Position numbers and translations under genes: made by a program. A DNA stretch of 40,837 nucleotides from an uncultured Pseudomonadota bacterium (GTDB taxonomy: Bacteria > Pseudomonadota > Alphaproteobacteria > UBA3830): the NCBI GenBank assembly GCA_902796155.1, contig CADBNZ010000001.1, positions 1 through 40,837 of the forward strand. Direction: 5' to 3'. Position 1 is the first letter of the stretch, and every line of letters begins with the position of its first letter. Shown in pieces: positions 1 through 11,835 of the stretch. The notes below the pieces were generated by a model. It was not told where the DNA came from. It saw only the letters and a program-made list of their open reading frames with translations, and ran no database searches.

Positions 1-75
1 AATGACAGACCTATGAAGACTCTAAAATGGCACTCGCCTGCCAACGTTGTCTCTCGTCTCCGTTCGGGGTATTAG
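1..75 (+). pseudogene. C-terminal end of an IS30-type transposase (partial at window edge)
   Basis: Frame 1 is open from the first base to the TAG at 73-75 and encodes 24 residues, starting NDRPMKTLKWHSPANVV. The pattern N-x-RP-x-KTL-x-W-x-(S/T)PA is the usual C-terminal tail of IS30-family transposases, just after the DDE catalytic core. Whether the element is intact cannot be judged because the window begins inside it. It ends about 50 bp upstream of ssrA, a common landing site for mobile DNA. I could not define a terminal inverted repeat between 76 and 125. A related IS3- or IS481-type integrase tail is the main alternative. Confidence 0.6.
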
Positions 76-88
76 TTTAATGTGCCAA

Positions 89-117
89 TTGTTTGTTAAT
101 TGTCCTTGTGATAGAGT
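89..117 (+). promoter_or_regulatory. Putative sigma70-type promoter of ssrA
   Basis: TTGTTT at 89-94 and TAGAGT at 112-117 are separated by 17 bases and lie just upstream of the tmRNA acceptor piece. An overlapping alternative is TTGTTA (93-98) with TAATTA (117-122). Both matches are moderate, so this is a positional inference. Confidence 0.35.
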
Positions 118-124
118 AATTACG

Positions 125-425
125 TCGTAGAAATACGAATATGGTAATAAACATCGTGATGAATAGGCGATGTGGACCCGGGGGCAGAGCCCGGCACCTC
201 CACCAGTTATGAAAACGCATGTTATTTTGGGGGTGAATAGATTCGACACACGTTGAAAAGCACGGTTTTTACTCGTGGTGGTTTACGTTATAAGACCAAA
301 AACTATAAATGCGAACGATAATTTCGCTTTGTACGCATGCAATGACAATGTTCCATTCGAAGAAAGGATCTATGCCTAGCATGTGACACGGTCTGGGGGC
401 ACCGGGTAACAGAAGCCCCCGCTGA
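125..425 (+). ncRNA. ssrA: tmRNA, circularly permuted two-piece form
   Basis: The gene has the permuted order of alphaproteobacteria, acceptor piece first and coding piece second. The acceptor piece ends with a T-arm (CCGGG 178-182, seven-base loop, CCCGG 190-194), the acceptor strand CACCTCC at 195-201, discriminator A202 and encoded CCA 203-205. The coding piece begins at 229 with GGGGGTG (229-235), which pairs with CACCTCC over seven base pairs including one G-U, followed by the tmRNA-type D-loop sequence with ATTCGAC. A P2 helix can form between CACA and CGTT near 246-254 and TGTG (171-174) and GGCG (166-169), with A170 bulged. The excised spacer is 206-228. A GGGGGC/GCCCCC hairpin near 395-420 closes the coding piece. 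tmRNA acts with SmpB to rescue stalled ribosomes. The outer ends (125 and 425) are approximate. Confidence 0.9.
311..379 (+). other. tmRNA proteolysis-tag reading frame
   Basis: From the likely resume codon GCG at 311 the frame reads ANDNFALYA, then CNDNVPFEERIYA, and stops at TAG 377-379, giving 22 residues. The ANDNF start is typical of alphaproteobacterial tags. The length is greater than the usual 10-15 residues and the end is YA rather than AA. The two halves resemble each other (ANDNF..YA and CNDNV..YA). The resume codon is inferred from position and from the ANDN signature. Confidence 0.7.
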
Positions 426-475
426 TTTTGTGCTTGTTGCTTGTGTTGTGTAGCAGTATTGGTGTTATAAATTAA

Positions 476-931
476 ATGGAATCTCAAAAATTCTTCCTGA
501 AAGCGTACGATGAAGAAGGATGTGACATAATCTCATCTTTGCTGCAGGATTCTATATTTCATATCAGTTCGCATTCTTTTCACGAGGATAAAAAATGCTT
601 GCGGTTAATGCTTAACAGGTTTTGTTGGGAGCTGTTAAGTGCGGAAGAACATGAAGCGCAATATGTTCCTAATTCGAAAAGAAACTATTATAGGGTTCAT
701 TCAGGATTATATATTCATGATGTGCAAAGCATAACTGTGAACGATAATTTCAAGAACATTGTGCATGAAAGATACCTTAATTTATTGGCAATGCATGCCA
801 CGGGTAACGAAATAAATCTACTGTTTTCCGGTCATAAAAATGTGTGCTTGAAAGTAAATAGCCTGAACGTTTACTTAAAAGATCTGCATGACCGATATCC
901 AGCTCCCGCACGATCTTTTCATAACGTCTAG
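476..931 (+). CDS. DUF2948 family protein
   Basis: A 151-residue cytosolic protein without signal peptide or membrane segment. The N-terminal half has the family layout: an acidic opening (KAYDEEGCDIISSLLQDS), then an RLMLNRFCWE motif matching the LLNRFCWE core typical of DUF2948. This family is found almost only in alphaproteobacteria and has no established function. The ATG at 476 gives the expected family length and follows ssrA by about 50 bases. It is convergent with the SPFH gene at 967, separated by 35 bases of T-rich DNA. I see no catalytic signature. The family call is fairly secure; the role is unknown. Confidence 0.8.
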   Translation: MESQKFFLKAYDEEGCDIISSLLQDSIFHISSHSFHEDKKCLRLMLNRFCWELLSAEEHEAQYVPNSKRNYYRVHSGLYIHDVQSITVNDNFKNIVHERYLNLLAMHATGNEINLLFSGHKNVCLKVNSLNVYLKDLHDRYPAPARSFHNV

Positions 932-966
932 ATAATTTTCTATATTTCTTATCTTCTTACTATTTT

Positions 967-1875
967 CTATTTTTCTGTGCCATCTTCCTTAATCTTTTGT
1001 GCTGCAAATATAGATTCGCGGATTTGCTCTCCTAAATCAGCTACATTACCTGGAGAATGCGGCACAAAAATTACGTTCGATTTAGATCCCGCGCCTATTT
1101 CTTTTAATGTATCTATATATTGTATAAGCAAGACCATATCCATAACATGCGACGCTTGAGTTCCTGGAAGTTGACGCACAAACTCTTCGACCGATTGTCC
1201 TAATCCCTCGATAATCGCTTGCCGTTGTCCCGCAATACCCTTACCATGCAAAATACTTGCTTCGGCCTCTGCTTCCGCTTGCTTCACTTTTAGAATTTTC
1301 TCGGCTTCTCCCTTCTCGCTTGCGGCAACACGCAATCTCTGAGCTGTGTTTATCTCATTCATGGCAGCCTTAACATTTTGATCAGGGTTAATATCTGTAA
1401 CAAGGGTCTCAATAATACCGTACCCAAACTCTGACATAGGTTTTGATAATTCTATCTTCATAGCGTCTGCTATATCATTTTTCTTAGAAAAGACGTCATC
1501 CAAACTTAGTTTAGGAACTTGAGCGCGCACTAGGTCAAAAACAAACGCTTTTATCTGATACTCAGGATTTTGCAAAGCGTAGCATGCTTCAAAGACTTTT
1601 TCGGGAAGAACTCTATATTGAACCGCAACTACAACATTAACAAAGACGTTATCAAGAGTTTTCGTTTCGACTGAAACGCCTAACTGATTAATTCTGAGCG
1701 ATAACGTCGACACGACATCGTCTATTATCGGAATTTTCCAATGCAATCCGGGATGAGCAATGCGATTGAACTTGCCCAGACGCTCAATTACTGCGCAACT
1801 CTGCTGACGAACGATAAAAATACTTCCGAACAGCAGTAAAAATAACAATATGCAAAGAATCGCAAACAAATCCAT
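967..1875 (-). CDS. SPFH/Band 7 protein, HIR/stomatin-like
   Basis: A 302-residue protein with one N-terminal membrane segment (about residues 4-21) followed by a Band 7 domain (about 20-200) and an Ala/Glu-rich helix (about 180-215) typical of SPFH oligomerisation. The segment QQSCAVIERLGKFNRIAHPGLHW is the Band 7 opening, given here as one recognisable stretch: residues 24-46 with key residues E31, R32, G34 and PGLHW at the end. The sequence resembles plant hypersensitive-induced-reaction proteins and bacterial HIR-like proteins more than E. coli QmcA. Such proteins form membrane microdomain scaffolds, often with proteases. No NfeD-type partner is adjacent. The ATG at 1875 gives the normal family length. 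Confidence 0.85.
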   Translation of the reverse strand: MDLFAILCILLFLLLFGSIFIVRQQSCAVIERLGKFNRIAHPGLHWKIPIIDDVVSTLSLRINQLGVSVETKTLDNVFVNVVVAVQYRVLPEKVFEACYALQNPEYQIKAFVFDLVRAQVPKLSLDDVFSKKNDIADAMKIELSKPMSEFGYGIIETLVTDINPDQNVKAAMNEINTAQRLRVAASEKGEAEKILKVKQAEAEAEASILHGKGIAGQRQAIIEGLGQSVEEFVRQLPGTQASHVMDMVLLIQYIDTLKEIGAGSKSNVIFVPHSPGNVADLGEQIRESIFAAQKIKEDGTEK

Positions 1876-1959
1876 AGATTTTCTCCCTAAATAGCCGTTT
1901 ATTTGATAATAACTTTAATAAAGAGAAAAGACCACTTAAAAGAAAATTCTGTAGCAAAA

Positions 1960-2856
1960 TTAAAACTTTTTCCTCGCCGTCTCATCTTTTTCTATTTGAG
2001 CAAGCGGATGGAATTTATTTACGACTTCTCGTAGCTTTTTGCTTGTAACATGCGTGTATATTTCCGTCGTTGATATATCTTGGTGTCCAAGCATTTTTTT
2101 TACGCTCAGCAAATCCGCTCCATTGTCCAAAATGTGCGTTGCAAAAGCATGCCTTAAAACGTGCGGTGAAATTTTTGTTACATCAATTCCTGACGTTGCT
2201 GCTAATTCCTTCAATATTTGGAATACCCTCTGGCGTGTTATATGTTTTTCCGCATTTACAGAAGGGAATAACCAAGGGGATTCTTTGCAGGCCGCAAGCC
2301 ATTCCGGCATTAATGAAACGATTCTCGGGGATATCGGAACAATACGCTCTTTACTTCCTTTTCCGAAAACTCTTATGAATTTATTTTCTACAATCGCATT
2401 CCTTTTTAAAGAAATCAGCTCACTGACTCGTAATCCGCTTCCATACAAAATCAGCAAAATTAATTCCGCTCGAATATCGTCAGGGTGCGGCAGCGTTAAT
2501 ATCGCATTCCGTAATTTTTCTATAACTTCCTCACTTACTATTTTAGGAAGAGGGCGGCGACTTTTCGGCTGATGTATAAAACGAGTGGGATCCTGCGTTA
2601 TTAGTTCCTCTCGATACAAAAATTTGAAAAATTGTTTTAATGCCGATAATTTTCGTTTTACTGATGATGTTTTCAGCTTTTTTTCGTCCAAATTAGCCAG
2701 ATAATCCTTGATGTTTTCTTCTGTTATTTCCTTTTCAAGGTCAACAAATGCGCAAAAATCCGATAAATCCATTATATAAGATTGTACTGTGTTGTTGGCC
2801 ACATTTCGTTCACTTTTCAGATATTCCACGAACAATTCAACATACCTGTGCAGCAT
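1960..2856 (-). CDS. xerD: Tyrosine recombinase XerD/XerC
   Basis: A site-specific recombinase that resolves chromosome dimers at dif. From the internal ATG at 2856 (MLHRYVELF) the protein has 298 residues, the standard XerD length; the open frame extends 44 codons further upstream to 2988 but that part has no family similarity. The N-terminal SAM-like DNA-binding domain spans about 1-85. The catalytic set is complete: R143 (GSGLRVSEL), a Lys in GKGSKE at 165-170, H232 and R235 (HVLRH), H258 (LGHQD) and Y267 (IYTHV). It is divergent from the CorC-type gene. XerD rather than XerC is likelier from the HVLRHAFATH and KMLGHQDIS style, but the two are hard to tell apart by eye. Confidence 0.88.
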   Translation of the reverse strand: MLHRYVELFVEYLKSERNVANNTVQSYIMDLSDFCAFVDLEKEITEENIKDYLANLDEKKLKTSSVKRKLSALKQFFKFLYREELITQDPTRFIHQPKSRRPLPKIVSEEVIEKLRNAILTLPHPDDIRAELILLILYGSGLRVSELISLKRNAIVENKFIRVFGKGSKERIVPISPRIVSLMPEWLAACKESPWLFPSVNAEKHITRQRVFQILKELAATSGIDVTKISPHVLRHAFATHILDNGADLLSVKKMLGHQDISTTEIYTHVTSKKLREVVNKFHPLAQIEKDETARKKF

Positions 2857-3053
2857 TTTTATCTCGATTTCGTTAATAATTTCTTTACCATATCCAATTA
2901 TAAACTTATAATACTCTGAGTAATTAAAATGTGTATGCAAAAATACTTTATGCGAAGTTGTAATTTTCATTCTTATTTTTTTCCGCAAGATTTCGATTTT
3001 TCTTTGTCGCGTGTCGCTGGTTCGGCTTTCCGTTTTATTAATGTTGGAATTTA

Positions 3054-4343
3054 ATGGCTTATATTATTTTTAGTTTAGGCGTTTTGTGCTTGATTGGCAT
3101 TGCCGGTTTTATCGCCGGAGCAGAAACTGCGATTACGGGGGCATCAAAGGCGCATTTGTATCATCTCGCAAAGAAAAAAGACCAGAGAGCGAAAAAGGTT
3201 CTCGAGTTAAAAGGGAAAATGACCACATCAATCGGGACAATTTTAGTTTTGAACCAGATGGTTGTTTACCTCATACCTATAGTGAGCACTTTATTTGCTT
3301 TGAAATATTTTTCAGCAGCGGAAACGGCAATTATGCAGACAATTATAGCCGTTTTGCTTATGACTTATGCCGAAATATTTCCGAAAATGGTCGCAATCAA
3401 ATTTACAATGGAATATGCGCTGTTTGTTGCTCCGTTTGTGGATGTAATTGTTCTTTGTTTGAAGCCGTTAATCAGTCTTTTGGAATGTTGTGCAAGAATT
3501 TCCATGAAACTTTTCAGAATGGACGTAGAAAATGAGCACGCTTCTGAAAATCCTGACGAAGAACTACGAGGAGCAATCGAAATGCACTCTTCCGAAGGTG
3601 ATGAAGACGAAGAACAAAAGAAAATCATGCTCAAAAGTATTCTGGATTTGGAAGCTATTCGAGTCACTCAAGCTATGGTGCACAGAAAAAATATGAGTAC
3701 CATCGATTCCTCTCTTCCTGTCGCGAAAATTGCTGAGGAATTAATGAACTGCCAGTATTCCCGAGTGCCGATGTGGAAGGATAATCCCGAAAACATTATC
3801 GGCATTTTGAAAACAAAAACTTTTTTCAGAGCTTTACAATTGAGTAATGAAAACATCGAAAATGTAAAGATAAACAGCCTTATTTCTCCGCCGTGGTTTA
3901 TTCCGGAAACAACGCATTTGCTTGAACAGCTGCAAAATTTTCGCAAAAAAAGAGAGCATTTTGCGCTTGTTGTAGATGAATACGGCGATCTAATGGGCTG
4001 CATAACTTTGGAAGATATTTTGGAAGAAATCGTGGGTAATATTGGCGATGAATACGATGACGCTACCGACGAAGAAATGAAAATTCAGGCAGATGGCAGC
4101 GTAATCGCATATGGAACAACTCCGGTTCGAGACATAAACAGAGAATTTGATTGGAGCATTCCGGAAGAAGACGCAGCCACTATTGCGGGCTATATTATGG
4201 GAGAATTGCGGAAAATCCCGGACGCCGGACAAGTTTATAACTTAGCGGGATATAAGATGGAGATTTTACGACGGCAGCGGAACCAAATTGTTTTGGTGAA
4301 AATTACGCCGATGTCGATTAGTGAGGACAACAATAGCATTTGA
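3054..4343 (+). CDS. CorC/HlyC-type (CNNM) membrane protein with CBS pair
   Basis: A 429-residue inner-membrane protein with the family layout: DUF21 domain with about four membrane segments (residues 1-140, including GAETAITGASKAHL), an acidic linker (about 160-190), a CBS pair (about 200-330, with SRVPMWKDNPENIIGILKT in the first CBS and VVDEYGDLMGCITLEDILE in the second) and a C-terminal CorC_HlyC domain ending near 415. Proteins of this type are linked to Mg2+/Co2+ export or resistance; haemolysin naming is historical. It lies 56 bp upstream of NAD kinase on the same strand and may be co-transcribed with it. Confidence 0.88.
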   Translation: MAYIIFSLGVLCLIGIAGFIAGAETAITGASKAHLYHLAKKKDQRAKKVLELKGKMTTSIGTILVLNQMVVYLIPIVSTLFALKYFSAAETAIMQTIIAVLLMTYAEIFPKMVAIKFTMEYALFVAPFVDVIVLCLKPLISLLECCARISMKLFRMDVENEHASENPDEELRGAIEMHSSEGDEDEEQKKIMLKSILDLEAIRVTQAMVHRKNMSTIDSSLPVAKIAEELMNCQYSRVPMWKDNPENIIGILKTKTFFRALQLSNENIENVKINSLISPPWFIPETTHLLEQLQNFRKKREHFALVVDEYGDLMGCITLEDILEEIVGNIGDEYDDATDEEMKIQADGSVIAYGTTPVRDINREFDWSIPEEDAATIAGYIMGELRKIPDAGQVYNLAGYKMEILRRQRNQIVLVKITPMSISEDNNSI

Positions 4344-4399
4344 TTAAAATTTTAAATTTTTCTATGCTAGCTTAATGGTAGGGTGGATAAGTTTTTAAA

Positions 4400-5158
4400 A
4401 TGAAAATTCATTTTGTAAGTTCATGTAGTGAAAAATCAAGAAGCGCATACAAGCAGATGACAGAGTTATATGGGCAAGCTGATGTTTCAGAAGCTGATTG
4501 CATCGTTGTTCTGTCAGGCGATGGAATGGTTTTACGGGCTTTTCACGAAAATTATAAACAAGGCCTTCCGATTTACGGAGCGAATCGAGGAAAAATCGGT
4601 TTTCTTACAAATCCGTATTCAGTGGAAAATTTAGAAGAAAGAATTGAAAATGCTGTTCCGCTGAAAATTCATCCTTTGTGGGTAAAGATAGAGACGCGAA
4701 ACGGCGAAATTTTCGAAGCAATAGCGATAAATGAACTGTATTTACTGCGACAAACACACCAAACCGCAAAAATAAAAATCGTGATCGATGATGTCGAAAG
4801 AATGAAAGAAATGGTCTCTGACGGAATCATCGCCGCTACAGCAACGGGAAGCAGCGCATATAACTATTCCGCAAATGGACCTATCATACCGCCGGGAACA
4901 AAATTGCTTGCATTGACTCCGATAAGCTCTTTTCGTCCGAGAGGCTGGCGCGGAGCGTTGCTTGAGTCATCATCTGTCATTGAATTTGATATAATAGATG
5001 CGCAAAAAAGACCAGTATGCGCAGTTGCCGACTATGTCGAGTTCCGAGACGCTTCCAAAGTCACGGTGTCAGAAGCAAAAGACATCACTCTTACTCTGCT
5101 GTTTGATAAGGATAATTTATTTAAAGAGAAAATAATCCAGGAACAATTTACGGCGTAA
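4400..5158 (+). CDS. nadK: NAD kinase
   Basis: A cytosolic enzyme that phosphorylates NAD to NADP with ATP or polyphosphate. The 252-residue length matches the short alphaproteobacterial type. Visible motifs are the nucleotide loop SGDGMVL (near residue 38, normally GGDG), YGANRGKIGFLTN (near 60), and the substrate region ATGSSAYNYSANGPIIPP (near 150), followed by LTPISSFRPRGWRG as in other alphaproteobacteria. The first Gly of the GGDG motif is Ser. The ATG at 4400 is preceded by AGGGTGG at a slightly long distance. The gene is convergent with atpF, with only 8 bases between the stop codons. Confidence 0.9.
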   Translation: MKIHFVSSCSEKSRSAYKQMTELYGQADVSEADCIVVLSGDGMVLRAFHENYKQGLPIYGANRGKIGFLTNPYSVENLEERIENAVPLKIHPLWVKIETRNGEIFEAIAINELYLLRQTHQTAKIKIVIDDVERMKEMVSDGIIAATATGSSAYNYSANGPIIPPGTKLLALTPISSFRPRGWRGALLESSSVIEFDIIDAQKRPVCAVADYVEFRDASKVTVSEAKDITLTLLFDKDNLFKEKIIQEQFTA

Positions 5159-7307: not shown

Positions 7308-8531
7308 CTAATTCACGACAACGTTTATGCCCTTCAGGAACTGTTTCGGAAGCATTTTTGCGCCAGCAGCGGCGATAACTTCCTGCAATTGGTTATCGTT
7401 GTAAGCGCTTGTCATTATCACAGATTGTTTTACAAGATCGCATTGCAGAACGGTGCTTAAAATATCCTCCGAATCCGAATATGTTGACTCGTAATTTATC
7501 AGTGCGCAAACATTTTGTTTTTCTTCACTGGATAAAGAATCAACAAAATCACTTGTTTCTTGCCCATCGCTGCAGAATTTCAATTTCACCGTATCCATAT
7601 AATTTTTAAACAGTTTTTCCCATTGTTTTTGCGATGCTGTATCGTTATCAAGAACCATAATTATGCTGTCTTTGTGAACATTTATCTGAGTAGATATCCA
7701 ATTCGGCTGTTCAGAAAGAGGGAAAGTGATTACAGTTTTGCTTCCTTCATCATCATTTGATGAAACGACTACTTTTCCTTGGCATGATTGTACAATATCC
7801 GAGATATTACTCACGTTGGCCATCTTAGAATTACTCGAAACTTCAATAATTGCATCGGAATTTTTCGCGGTAAATTTAATGTTGATGATTTCCCTGTTTC
7901 CTGAGCAATTTTGTACCGTTTTATCAATAACATCTGAAATTATATGAGAAAATTCCGCTTGATCGGCATTAATAAAAGCATATTTTACATCGGGATCATA
8001 AAATAAATTGATCTTCACATCTGCTTTTTTGTATTGCGCTTTCTTCTGATTCACCAATTCAAAAAGCGTAAGAGCAACTAAAACACAGTGTTGTTTCGAG
8101 AAATCCAGTTCTTGTTGTGAGTATTTATATTTCTGCAAAAGTTCATCTGCAATATTTTTTATGCTCGATGTAATGCCCCTCAATATATATTGCTGATCTT
8201 TCGGAAGATCTTTACTTGTTTTCGTAAATACTTCAAGACTCACTAAAGGAGACGTAATATCATGTGCCATCTGAGATATAAATCGAGTAAACTCACCTTG
8301 GAACTTCAGTTTAAGTTGCTGCATTCTGTTCAAAAATTCCAAATCCATAGCACGTTTTTTTTCTATTGCGATTCGCTTCGAATCTGTTACATCTATAGAT
8401 ATACCTATTGCACCTTCAATCTCTCCATTTACTTGTAAAGGAGTTTTCATCGATAGGTATGTTCTCCCTCCGCTTCCTTTTTCTTCCCCTACAAACACGT
8501 GGCCGCTACGAATTACTTCATCAGTACTTAC
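7308..8531 (-). pseudogene. Decayed PAS/histidine-kinase half of the second CDPS-kinase copy
   Basis: This open stretch continues in frame after the amber codon at 8532-8534 and lines up with residues from about 307 to the end of the intact paralogue at 9525. It holds the second half of the PAS domain, a HisKA helix with the H-box SQMAHDITSPLVSLEVF, a HATPase region and a receiver-like tail. The ATPase region has lost its N-box (DKTVQNC in place of NNAVEAC), its G1 box (EVSSNSKM in place of EVSDNGNGMP) and the entire G2 box, so it cannot bind ATP normally. The receiver-like part has Asn (LINYE) where a phospho-Asp is expected. A restart at a GTG (8498) is possible, but there is no strong ribosome site. 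I read it as a dying duplicate; a non-catalytic scaffold is the alternative. Confidence 0.75.
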
Positions 8532-9452
8532 CTATGCATCTTTATCTATCTCTTTAGCTGTAAGCTTTTTATTAATTAATCTATCCAATGAGAAATTGCT
8601 ATGAATAAGTTTTCCTTGTTTATCTACAACAAAGAAATTTATGTTTGTCGCTTCATTTCGCATGAAATTTGTAACGGCTGCTTCTATATCGGCTTCTGTT
8701 AAGCTTTTTTCTAAGGTGTCGCTTGCCGCATTTTTTTGCAATTTTTCTTCTTTTTCATTTTCACTTTCTTCATTACCACTCACACGATACGAAATATGCT
8801 TTATATCTAACGAATATTTTTCGATGATATAATCGCCAGTCGAGTACAATTTCATCGGATAAACAATAATTCCACCTGAGCGAAAAGAGGAGCAAAGATG
8901 GGCGCATTCTTCTAAGATAAAATCGACGCACTGCTGCTTATCCTTTTTGTGTTTGTATGCATTAGTCGCTGCTTCGGCGATTACTGTGTCCCTGAACTTC
9001 AGATTGACGCCGTTTCCGTTTTCATCCCCCTGAAAATCCCGCATAATTTGCTTATAGCAATTTCGAAAATCTTCTGAACCAATTTCTGTCGCCCAACATT
9101 TTAATTCAACTTCTGCTTTTATTTTTTCAATCGCTTTTTTATTCTTTAAATACCAATCTATCGGAATTGACACGTCCGTATATTTTGAAAATTCGCTGTA
9201 AAAGTGTCGATATAAATATGTTGTATCAAGAATAGTTACTTTTTTGATTTTTCTGAGAATTCTTTCGTCGTTGATAGCATTAACTAACTCTTCAAACACT
9301 TCTCCTGTTTGACTTTTGCACGAAAGCGATATGATTGCGTTGAGGACAAGGCTGTTATCTTGCGCTTCATCGAAAAATTTTCTGGCGTCGCTAGTCCATT
9401 TCGATTTTTTATCAGTATGTACTGTACTCTTTTTTTGTTCATTTCCCCGCAT
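8532..9452 (-). CDS. CDPS-like domain protein, truncated paralogue (ends at amber codon within PAS)
   Basis: The N-terminal part of the second CDPS-kinase copy, 306 residues from the ATG at 9452 (MRGNEQ), which has AGAGAGGAT upstream at good spacing; an in-frame ATG one codon earlier and another at 9506 are alternatives. Residues about 30-225 match the cyclodipeptide synthase pattern: candidate nucleophile S44 in ISLSCKSQTG, ILDTTYLYRHFY (74-85), the W..N..AIEK..AEVELKCW stretch (100-120), F178-I-L-E-E182 in the catalytic helix, and Y198-P199 in IVYP. It then enters a PAS domain and stops where the paralogue has Trp (IDKDA-W). The CDPS domain is complete, so this short product could still be an active enzyme. 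It lies 72 bp downstream of the intact copy, likely in one transcript. Confidence 0.7.
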   Translation of the reverse strand: MRGNEQKKSTVHTDKKSKWTSDARKFFDEAQDNSLVLNAIISLSCKSQTGEVFEELVNAINDERILRKIKKVTILDTTYLYRHFYSEFSKYTDVSIPIDWYLKNKKAIEKIKAEVELKCWATEIGSEDFRNCYKQIMRDFQGDENGNGVNLKFRDTVIAEAATNAYKHKKDKQQCVDFILEECAHLCSSFRSGGIIVYPMKLYSTGDYIIEKYSLDIKHISYRVSGNEESENEKEEKLQKNAASDTLEKSLTEADIEAAVTNFMRNEATNINFFVVDKQGKLIHSNFSLDRLINKKLTAKEIDKDA

Positions 9453-9524
9453 CATATCCTCTCTTGTAATGATAATCCTATCTAAATAAATATAGACTAT
9501 CAACACAGTCTTTAATGGTTAAAA

Positions 9525-11720
9525 TTATCCTTTGATTTCAATTTTTACGTCATCCAAAAACTTGGTAGGCACCATTTTACCATCAGCCATAGCAACAAAT
9601 TCTTGCAGCCGTTTATCATTATAGGCATTCGTCGTTATTACCGACTGTTTCATAAGACCACACTGCAATATGCAATTTAAAATGTCCTCTGAAACTGAAT
9701 TTATAGGATTATAACCCATCAGAACAAAAACATTTTCTCTTTCGTCTTTGGATAACGAATCTACAAAATCATTTATCGCCTGACTATCTTTGAAGAAATG
9801 TAAATTAGAACGCTCGAAATGATCTTTCAAAGTTTTCTTCCATTCTTTTGGAAGAGGCTCTGAATCGTTATCCATGACTAAAACTATATTATTTTTGTTG
9901 AAATTTATTTCTTTCGATATCCATTCTGGCTGCTCTACAAGCGGAAAAGCAATCTCGAACTTCGTCCCCTTATTTCCTTTTGAAGTTATATTAATTTCAC
10001 CATGATAAAGTCTTGCAGTTTCCATTACCTGACACAATCCCAAGCCGCATCCGTTTTGTTTTGTACTTTCGACAGGAATATCCGACATGATTTGATTAAT
10101 CATTTTTTCGGGCATGCCATTACCATTATCAGAAACTTCAATTATGGCTTTATTATTTTCTGCTTTCAATTTTACATTAATTATTCCGCGTTTATCCTTG
10201 CAAGCTTCAACCGCATTATTAATTAAATTAGAAATCGTGCGTAAAAAGTTAGATTGATCTATGTTTATAAACGAATATTTCGCAGTAGTATCATAAGATA
10301 AATTTATACAAACATCTGTTTTGTTATATTGCAGTTTTTTCTGATTTATTATTTCAGAAAGCGCAAGCGACACTAAAACATTCTGCCTTTTCGAAGAATC
10401 CAGTTCCCTTTTGTTATATTTATACTTTTGCAACAGATCGTCGGCAATGTTTCGTATACTGGAAGTAATCCCAGACAATACATACTGCTGTTCGGAAGGG
10501 AGGTTCTTGCATGTTTTCGCGAATACTTCGAGACTTACGAGAGGTGAAGTAATATCATGAGCCATTTGCGATATAAATTGTGTAAACTCATTTTGAAATT
10601 TGATTTTTATTTGTTGAATGCGATTTAAAAACTCCAAATCAGAAGCACGTTTTCTTTCAATTTCTACTCGTTTTGTGTCTGTAACGTCAATAGAAAGACC
10701 AATCGCGCCTTCAATTGCCCCATTTATTCGCAAAGGAGCTTTCATTGAAAGATAAATCCGTCCGTCTTTTGCTTTTTCTTCACCAACAAACATTTCACCC
10801 GAGCAAATTACTTCAAGAGTTCGTAACCATGCGTCTTTATCGATTTTTGCGGCTATCAATCCTTTGTCAACTAACCGTTCCAGAGCAAAATTGCTGTAAA
10901 TTAATTGGCCTTTTTTATCTACAACGAAAAAATTCATGTTTGTTACTTCATTTTTCATGAAGTTCGTAACTGCGGCTTCTATGTCGGATTTGCTTAAATT
11001 ATAGTTTGTCGCAATGAAATCATCGGCCCCATCATTTTGATTTGGTTTTTCTTTTGCGCTATCAATATCTTTGCTTGTTCTGTACGAAAGATGAGTTACC
11101 TTCAGAGAATGTTTTTCAATCATGTAATCGCCGGTTGAATATAATTTCATCGGGTAAACAATATTTACGCTCGAATGACGGAATGACGAATGCAAATGTG
11201 CGCACTCTTCCAAAATGAAATCGACGCATTGCTGGAAATCCTTTTTGTGTTTGTACGCATTAACAGCTGCTTCAGAGGTTACCGTGTCTCTGAAGTCGAA
11301 GATCGTGCCTTTGCCATTTGAATCTCCTGCGTATTCCTTCATTATTTGCTTGTAGGACTCCTCAAAATTTTTTGTGTTAATTTCATTTGCCCAAGATTTT
11401 AGTTCAACTTCAGTTTTTAGCTTTTCTATTGCCGTTTTGTTTTCGAGATACCACGGAGTTGCAATAGAACTATCGGAATATTTTGAAAAATCTGAATAAA
11501 AATGCCTATATAAATAGGTTGTATCAAGAATATTTACCTTTTTTACTTTTCTGAGGATGTCTTTGCTGTTTATTGCATTGATTAATTCTTCAAAAGGTTC
11601 TCCTGTCTGGCTTTTGCAGGAAATTGATATTATTACTTCCAAAACTAAACTGCAATCTTGCGCTTCGTCAAAGAATCTTCTGGCCTCAGCGCTCCATCTA
11701 GCCATTTTGCTAGTGCCCAA
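9525..11720 (-). CDS. CDPS-like domain fused to PAS, histidine kinase and receiver-like domain
   Basis: A cytosolic protein of about 731 residues without membrane segments. Numbering from 11747, residues 20-225 match XYP-type tRNA-dependent cyclodipeptide synthases, which join two aminoacyl-tRNAs: S43 in IISISCKSQTG (AlbC S37 position), NILDTTYLYRHFY (72-84), WYLEN plus VELKSW (99-119), FILEEC (177-182, with E181 at AlbC E182) and VYP (197-199, Y202-P203 of the XYP class). AlbC Y178 is Phe here. PAS is about 255-358, the H-box has H397 (SQMAHDITSPL), the N-box is NNAVEA (510-515), G1 is DNGNGMP (540-546) and G2 GCGLGL (566-571). Residues 618-740 resemble a receiver, but the phospho-Asp position is Gly (VLMGYN). 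The start is probably TTG 11720, 5 bases after AGGTG; ATG 11705 or TTG 11747 are alternatives. The kinase call is firm; the CDPS call rests on motif order. Confidence 0.8.
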   Translation of the reverse strand: MGTSKMARWSAEARRFFDEAQDCSLVLEVIISISCKSQTGEPFEELINAINSKDILRKVKKVNILDTTYLYRHFYSDFSKYSDSSIATPWYLENKTAIEKLKTEVELKSWANEINTKNFEESYKQIMKEYAGDSNGKGTIFDFRDTVTSEAAVNAYKHKKDFQQCVDFILEECAHLHSSFRHSSVNIVYPMKLYSTGDYMIEKHSLKVTHLSYRTSKDIDSAKEKPNQNDGADDFIATNYNLSKSDIEAAVTNFMKNEVTNMNFFVVDKKGQLIYSNFALERLVDKGLIAAKIDKDAWLRTLEVICSGEMFVGEEKAKDGRIYLSMKAPLRINGAIEGAIGLSIDVTDTKRVEIERKRASDLEFLNRIQQIKIKFQNEFTQFISQMAHDITSPLVSLEVFAKTCKNLPSEQQYVLSGITSSIRNIADDLLQKYKYNKRELDSSKRQNVLVSLALSEIINQKKLQYNKTDVCINLSYDTTAKYSFINIDQSNFLRTISNLINNAVEACKDKRGIINVKLKAENNKAIIEVSDNGNGMPEKMINQIMSDIPVESTKQNGCGLGLCQVMETARLYHGEINITSKGNKGTKFEIAFPLVEQPEWISKEINFNKNNIVLVMDNDSEPLPKEWKKTLKDHFERSNLHFFKDSQAINDFVDSLSKDERENVFVLMGYNPINSVSEDILNCILQCGLMKQSVITTNAYNDKRLQEFVAMADGKMVPTKFLDDVKIEIKG

Positions 11721-11835
11721 TTTTTCACCTACATAACTATTTAACAAAAATCCAACAATAATTTTTTGTGAATATTACAACGAAAAATGTAAAAAATATA
11801 TTAATTTCTACATATCTATTAAAAGAGAACTTTCA

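Follow-up and report, generated by a model that had tools for sequence, protein, structure and literature searches.

CqsA/CqsS and LqsA/LqsS are pairs formed by an autoinducer synthase and a sensor kinase, and in the eukaryotic protein GCN2 a HisRS-like domain senses tRNA and controls the eIF2alpha kinase. Cyclodipeptide synthases (CDPSs) are known as secondary-metabolite enzymes, with product roles that are mostly unknown and a function in signalling for which gene neighbourhoods have so far been the only hint. PAS domains rank among the most frequent non-biosynthetic neighbours of CDPS genes, for which a quorum-sensing role was suggested (PMC5767969); the clusters with PAS neighbours treated there are from other organisms, and the accessible portion of that work describes no fusion or kinase architecture. 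Contrary to a preliminary description of the locus studied here, known CDPSs are not always small stand-alone enzymes, since fusions of a CDPS to a methyltransferase, a P450 or an ABC transporter have already been published, and the isolated CDPS domain of one P450 fusion was found to be active (PMC5816076).

The gene described here lies in a window of 40,837 nucleotides (the whole stretch of DNA that was analysed) from a reduced alphaproteobacterial genome of the UBA3830/Holosporales type. Its product joins a CDPS-like domain to a PAS-histidine kinase and can be compared with each of the systems mentioned above. As in CqsA/CqsS and LqsA/LqsS, a small-molecule synthase is linked to a kinase proposed to read its product, with the differences that here the synthase is a tRNA-dependent peptide synthase, the PAS domain is cytosolic, both parts often reside in one polypeptide and the ligand is putative. 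As in GCN2, a tRNA-handling enzyme fold is joined to a kinase, whereas GCN2 is a eukaryotic Ser/Thr kinase with a catalytically dead synthetase domain of an unrelated fold class. The NYH-type CDPSs with fused tailoring domains (PMC5816076) also carry the CDPS at the N-terminus of a larger protein, but their partner is a tailoring enzyme or a transporter, while here it is a sensor kinase. Literature searches for a CDPS-histidine kinase fusion gave nothing relevant, in line with the preliminary description, whose author likewise knew of no characterised case.

The open reading frame 9525-11720 on the reverse strand is a genuine gene. Counted from the first TTG (11747), the frame 9525-11747 (-) comprises 740 amino acids; the TTG at 11720 and its Shine-Dalgarno-like site, which probably constitute the actual start, are also present in the sister genome G019 (locus L045). 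Residue numbers of the window protein are given from the TTG at 11747, and "domain" numbers from the Met at 11705. The features of the gene are the following:

9525..11720, reverse strand: CDPS-PAS-HisKA-HATPase-REC gene, likely start TTG 11720 with Shine-Dalgarno-like AGGTG just 5' of it
11070..11705, reverse strand: XYP-CDPS-like domain, ORF residues 15-226 (phmmer, profile A1, AF2, Foldseek)
11625..11627, reverse strand: Ser41 codon, putative equivalent of the CDPS catalytic Ser37 (AlbC) or Ser34 (Nbra) (HMM alignment)
11217..11219, reverse strand: Phe177 codon, at the position of the CDPS catalytic Tyr178 (aligned with the Y of 5ocd CLDYLIEEC and Nbra CRAYLLEEC)
11205..11207, reverse strand: Glu181 codon, putative equivalent of CDPS Glu182 (HMM alignment)
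11151..11156, reverse strand: Tyr198-Pro199 codons, putative equivalents of Tyr202-Pro203, the YP of XYP (HMM alignment)
10671..10991, reverse strand: PAS domain (Pfam PAS_4, 0.019 for this copy and 5.7e-6 for the best family member; PAS topology in the model)
10557..10559, reverse strand: HisKA phospho-accepting His397 (AHDITSPL), invariant in 31/31 full-length homologues
9939..10259, reverse strand: HATPase_c with N and G boxes present (Pfam PF02518, 9.4e-19; alignment)
9528..9887, reverse strand: receiver-like domain with Gly instead of the phospho-acceptor Asp (alignment and full-length model)

By homology, as judged from sequence profiles and a predicted fold, the N-terminal domain is a CDPS of the XYP-like type. 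A phmmer search of the PDB with the single sequence found the CDPSs of Fluoribacter dumoffii (5OCD, 1.2e-4) and Rickettsiella grylli (5MLP, 0.045) and nothing further. Profile A1, made from 37 homologues of the domain, matched six PDB chains, all of them XYP-subfamily CDPSs: 5OCD (1.1e-8), 5MLP (4.5e-8), the Nocardia brasiliensis CDPS in 9I5M/5MLQ (7e-7) and 9IAM (1.9e-6), and the Glomeribacter CDPS 6Y4B (2.4e-6), with the next match at 0.5. The AF2 model of the domain has a mean pLDDT of 94.3, and the best 32 Foldseek matches of this model in the PDB consist entirely of CDPS chains, with XYP members ahead (top match 5ocd, 7.9e-12) and NYH members next, followed by tyrosyl-tRNA synthetases, as is expected of a CDPS fold. 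The reading of the N-terminal part as CDPS-like in the preliminary description is therefore confirmed, both by matches to XYP-CDPS profiles and by a predicted fold that resembles the Rossmann domain of class I tRNA synthetases and has CDPSs as its nearest solved structures. The Pfam profile PF16715, which had been proposed for this comparison, misses the domain, for which neither Pfam nor NCBIfam rendered a match, and it found nothing in the window genome and 398 Pseudomonadota genomes. We do not take this as absence of CDPSs, since the model performs poorly on XYP members: a fragment of the solved R. grylli enzyme (Rgry) scores 15.3 bits against a cut-off of 27 bits, the Nbra fragment reaching 35 bits. 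Identity to the solved XYP-CDPSs (Fdum 5OCD, Rgry 5MLP, Nbra 5MLQ/9IAM and Cglo 6Y4B) is 15-19%, and the fold, the order of motifs, the catalytic Ser, Glu182, Tyr202-Pro203 and the L-x-R-H and W-x3-N motifs are common to both groups; the window family differs from them in its Phe at the catalytic Tyr178, in its reduced beta2 and beta7 strands and in being fused to PAS-HK-REC.

Active-site residues were counted in 54 complete homologous CDPS-like domains, with equivalences taken from HMM alignments and the numbering S34, Y172, E176 and Y194 of Nbra-CDPS (PMC13062777). The position of the catalytic Ser37, S41 in the window protein (domain S27), holds Ser in 52 and Cys in 2 domains; that of Glu182 (E181) holds Glu in 50 and Lys in 4; Tyr is found at the Tyr202 position (Y198) in 53/54, and Pro at the Pro203 position (P199) in 54/54. 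The alignment thus bears out the placing of the key Glu and the Tyr-Pro pair at a putative CDPS active site in the preliminary description. Its candidate for the nucleophile position, S43, has to be rejected, given that this position is occupied by Gly, Ala or Ser in the 54 homologues, and the Ser both conserved and aligned with the catalytic one is S41, two residues earlier. At position 178, 53 domains including that of the window protein (F177) carry Phe, and a single one Tyr. As aligned, the window family would keep three of the four catalytic residues and have changed one almost without exception. The Y178F substitution in AlbC substantially impairs both activity and formation of the aminoacyl-enzyme (PMC5935735), which makes catalysis by the window protein doubtful. 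The position of Nbra Q69, which H-bonds the substrate amine and the catalytic Tyr172, is an invariant Tyr in this family (Tyr80), a candidate source of the hydroxyl missing at 178. Val or Ile occupies the position of AlbC G35 and Nbra L32, from which a small P1 pocket, suited to an Ala-like first residue, is predicted.

In XYP enzymes, the acceptor stem of the tRNA is docked by the strands beta2 and beta7 (PMC7566563), which are long and basic, with K-phi-X-F in beta2 and L-R/K-F-K-K in beta7. The model of the window domain, in an uncertain reading, has beta2 and beta7 as strands of only two residues (3-4 and 208-209) with one basic residue each, Lys or Arg being present at position 3 in 50/54 and at position 209 in 38/54 domains. 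On the other hand, the residues of the A76/aminoacyl site (Ser, Tyr202, the Cys169 equivalent, R-H and W..N) are conserved in the 54-domain alignment. It is possible, though on balance doubtful, that sensing is done by the CDPS domain itself, which would bind aminoacyl-tRNA or be trapped as an aminoacyl-Ser enzyme in an incomplete synthesis, its occupancy being transmitted to the kinase. The near-universal Y178F change, which would slow acyl transfer while the binding site is kept, and the conservation of the A76/aminoacyl site fit such a sensor; that beta2 and beta7 retain a single basic residue apiece speaks against it. The change at Y178, the sporadic E182K and S37C and the reduction of the docking strands could also indicate that the CDPS fold has been repurposed as an ordinary cytosolic module sensing another small ligand, for instance a free amino acid, a nucleotide or a host dipeptide. 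We consider this unlikely, as the CDPS site retains its Ser, Glu and Tyr-Pro almost completely.

The remainder of the protein is as the preliminary description had it, with the PAS domain, HisKA with H397, an intact HATPase and a receiver-like tail recovered by Pfam and alignment, and no transmembrane segment in the window protein (maximum Kyte-Doolittle value 1.03; full-length AF2 model). Only the tail calls for a qualification: the fold is present, while the phospho-acceptor Asp, kept by 21 of the 25 receiver-bearing family members in the alignment, is replaced by Gly in the window copy. The full-length AF2 model shows a PAS topology leading into a long signalling helix and then DHp, CA and receiver folds, and its best structural matches are PAS/LOV-histidine kinases. 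In an alignment of 28 full-length members, mean column identity is 0.60 in both the CDPS and the PAS domain, 0.52-0.53 in the kinase and 0.45 in the receiver, and drops to 0.24 in the linker between CDPS and PAS, which is disordered in the full-length model. The equal conservation of the CDPS domain and PAS would agree with the CDPS domain acting as a tRNA sensor, whereas a disordered and variable linker would not. Between G000 and G019, with dS about 1, dN/dS of the CDPS domain is 0.07 for copy 1 and 0.04 for copies 2 and 3, that of the PAS and kinase regions 0.02-0.09, and that of the copy-1 receiver 0.11. No Hpt protein was found in the window genome at E 1e-3, and none of the candidate response regulators of this genome, which from our own reading of the sequences we take to be CtrA-like, NtrX-like and others, could be linked to the window gene.

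Downstream of the window gene lies a tandem paralogue (7308-9506, reverse strand), absent from the preliminary description like the third copy treated below, that is 61% identical to it and is split into two parts:

8532..9506, reverse strand: tandem paralogue part 1, with the CDPS domain (8778-9404) and the first portion of PAS, terminated by an in-frame TAG at a position that is Trp in relatives
7308..8531, reverse strand: tandem paralogue part 2, with the remaining portion of PAS, then HisKA, a HATPase lacking G boxes and a receiver-like tail

Its orthologue in G019 (L034) is an unbroken frame that also lacks the HATPase G boxes, from which it follows that the kinase part had already degenerated by the time the TAG arose; judging from these sequences, the downstream paralogue is likely a pseudokinase in tandem with a putatively active copy. 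A third copy (L003, contig 34) is fully intact and 36% identical. The nonsense codon and missing G boxes of the downstream copy, the many broken copies of Endomicrobium and the receiver without its Asp in the window protein might be seen as signs that these genes are paralogues which spread laterally, are decaying and no longer have a function in the window organism. This is highly improbable in view of the dN/dS values given above for the CDPS, PAS and kinase regions, of the intact HATPase and His of copy 1, and of the intact third copy.

A search of the order with A3, the profile of the PAS module of the family, rendered related PAS-HK-REC proteins with other partners. One of them is a 747-aa fusion of an NYH CDPS to PAS-HK in G021 (PF16715 9.6e-58; PDB 6EZ3 2e-27), and scanning the order with PF16715 added a second NYH fusion of 718 aa in G012 (2.4e-44). 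A further NYH CDPS of G012 is one in-frame stop away from PAS-HK-REC, and in G030 a 246-aa NYH CDPS frame stops 22 nt before a PAS-HK-REC frame. On the Endomicrobia side, NYH CDPSs are found in 4/8 genomes, the complete ones as separate genes, each followed directly by a PAS-containing frame; kinase domains are confirmed in three of these neighbours, and the fourth is truncated at a contig end. Altogether, two of the eight complete NYH CDPSs are fused to PAS-HK-REC and six are located immediately upstream of a PAS-containing frame, some with ATGA overlaps. S37, N40, Y178 and E182 are present in 8/8 of them, Y202 in 7/8, and the position of H203 is Lys in 8/8. This retention of the catalytic tetrad by NYH members in the same role argues against a CDPS fold repurposed for another ligand, while the H203K change in every NYH member would suit an enzyme arrested as a sensor of aminoacyl-tRNA.

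The same kinase type, here lacking the CDPS domain, follows other biosynthetic genes as well. In L243 (G028) a nonribosomal peptide synthetase (NRPS) adenylation-carrier-reductase module (3-3233, truncated at the contig edge) overlaps the start of the PAS-HK-REC gene (3188-5068), and in L209 (G014) the overlap is between a SAM methyltransferase gene (389-1276) and the PAS-HK-REC gene (1246-2790). From the NYH CDPS, NRPS and methyltransferase partners, this kinase type appears to be repeatedly paired with makers of small, often peptide-derived molecules. In 10/50 genomes of the order, the same PAS-HK-REC kinase bears yet another N-terminal domain of ca. 250 aa, A4 (L213:1909-2682, L203, L200, L205-L208, L214, L199), with the motifs NAVVYFWESH, RTGYLSRYNYL, LYIVEE and IYLIHVG, and its presence would be in keeping with a fold repurposed for some other ligand. 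The order of its motifs (W, R-Y, Y-x-x-E-E) hints at kinship with CDPSs, but no support came from a profile search of the PDB, from Pfam or from hhalign. As the last of these misses even the link between the true XYP-like and NYH alignments, its negative result does not refute such kinship.

Taking these data together, we lean tentatively towards a cassette composed of a synthase and a sensor of its product, a reading which may hold but on which we would not quite rely, rather than towards direct sensing of aminoacyl-tRNA. The cassette is favoured by the NYH CDPSs that stand alone as genes just ahead of PAS-kinases and by the NRPS module in the same position, neither of which needs a CDPS domain acting as a physical sensor, and a diffusible product fits the separate genes better than a built-in allosteric sensor does. 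Separate genes, the NRPS and the variable, disordered linker, together with a PAS domain that leads into the signalling helix, suggest that PAS reads the product of the enzyme. The homology to CDPSs, the retention of Ser, Glu, Tyr and Pro in nearly all 54 domains, the low dN/dS of the CDPS domain, the independent recurrence with eight NYH CDPSs in the order and in Endomicrobia, and the published frequency of PAS domains next to CDPS genes (PMC5767969) give further support. Against it count the Phe at Y178 in 53/54 XYP-like domains, given its strong effect in AlbC (PMC5935735); the Lys at H203 in all NYH members, H203A impairing AlbC; and the occasional loss of E182 (Lys in 4/54) or Ser (Cys in 2/54), as well as the apparent reduction of the basic strands. 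The fixed Y178F and the NYH H203K indicate that catalysis is altered and keep the sensing of aminoacyl-tRNA, or of a trapped aminoacyl-enzyme, under consideration.

If the synthase and product-sensor reading is correct, the window gene would be one form of such a cassette. The CDPS-type domain, fed by aminoacyl-tRNA, would make a small product (a cyclodipeptide or a dipeptide-like compound) that would be bound by a PAS domain, located in the same polypeptide or, in other members, in the protein encoded by the next gene, and would thereby set the histidine-kinase activity. The output would pass to the receiver domain in most copies and to another response regulator in the case of the window copy, whose receiver appears to be dead. 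Because the substrate would be drawn from charged tRNA, the signal could report how well tRNAs are charged with amino acids, or how densely the symbionts populate the cell of their protist host. In more general terms, we consider it probable that a peptide-bond-forming, tRNA-dependent enzyme fold serves as an input module of two-component kinases, that this arrangement arose with the one CDPS subfamily as well as the other and was passed between different phyla among the endosymbionts of protists, and that it couples the aminoacyl-tRNA pool, directly or via a self-made cyclodipeptide, to a phosphorelay. The fusions and their neighbouring-gene relatives point to an unreported kind of system sensing a self-made signal or tRNA charge. 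A covalent CDPS-PAS-kinase that recurs with both subfamilies and in stand-alone versions makes the earlier suggestion of a signalling role directly testable, at the level of product, PAS and output, and if sensing of charged tRNA were the case, it would represent a bacterial two-component counterpart of GCN2.

A survey of homologues with the same domain order, proposed as a check in the preliminary description, revealed a recurring family. Among 50 genomes of the order, which are metagenome-assembled and in some cases incomplete, 25 carry the XYP-like CDPS-kinase fusion, all within one family, whereas a sample of 384 other alphaproteobacterial genomes contained none. When 84,980 species genomes were scanned, 69 loci were obtained, which belong to uncultured Holosporaceae/Alphaproteobacteria of termite guts and of ruminants, to termite-derived Endomicrobium/Endomicrobiellum (Elusimicrobiota) and to a single Prevotellaceae MAG; one locus (L102) carries the name UBA3830. 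A published study (mBio 2024, PMC11257099) regards UBA3830 as putative endosymbionts of flagellates from which Endomicrobiellum acquired genes, and reports that ATP/ADP antiporters moved from this order to Endomicrobiellum; a term search of that study found neither a histidine kinase nor a cyclodipeptide. In our tree, the Endomicrobia sequences are interleaved with the alphaproteobacterial ones, and their grouping as one clade is rejected (p-AU 2.7e-6). The CDPS-kinase would add to what unrelated endosymbionts of gut protists are known to exchange. No XYP CDPSs were found on plasmids, and no relatives in viral contigs.

In Endomicrobia, a genome can hold as many as nine match segments, of which many lie in broken frames. 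In three copies of Endomicrobium (L062, L066 and L073) the HisKA His is replaced by Asp (VDDICSPG), and from this replacement they are probably pseudokinases. Some members have a second C-terminal receiver (L083:7962-10466). Finally, a stand-alone XYP-like CDPS domain of 226 aa (L047, G035:C18, 1417-2094, reverse strand) was found in divergent orientation to an adjoining CDPS-PAS-HK-REC gene (2382-4541, forward strand).
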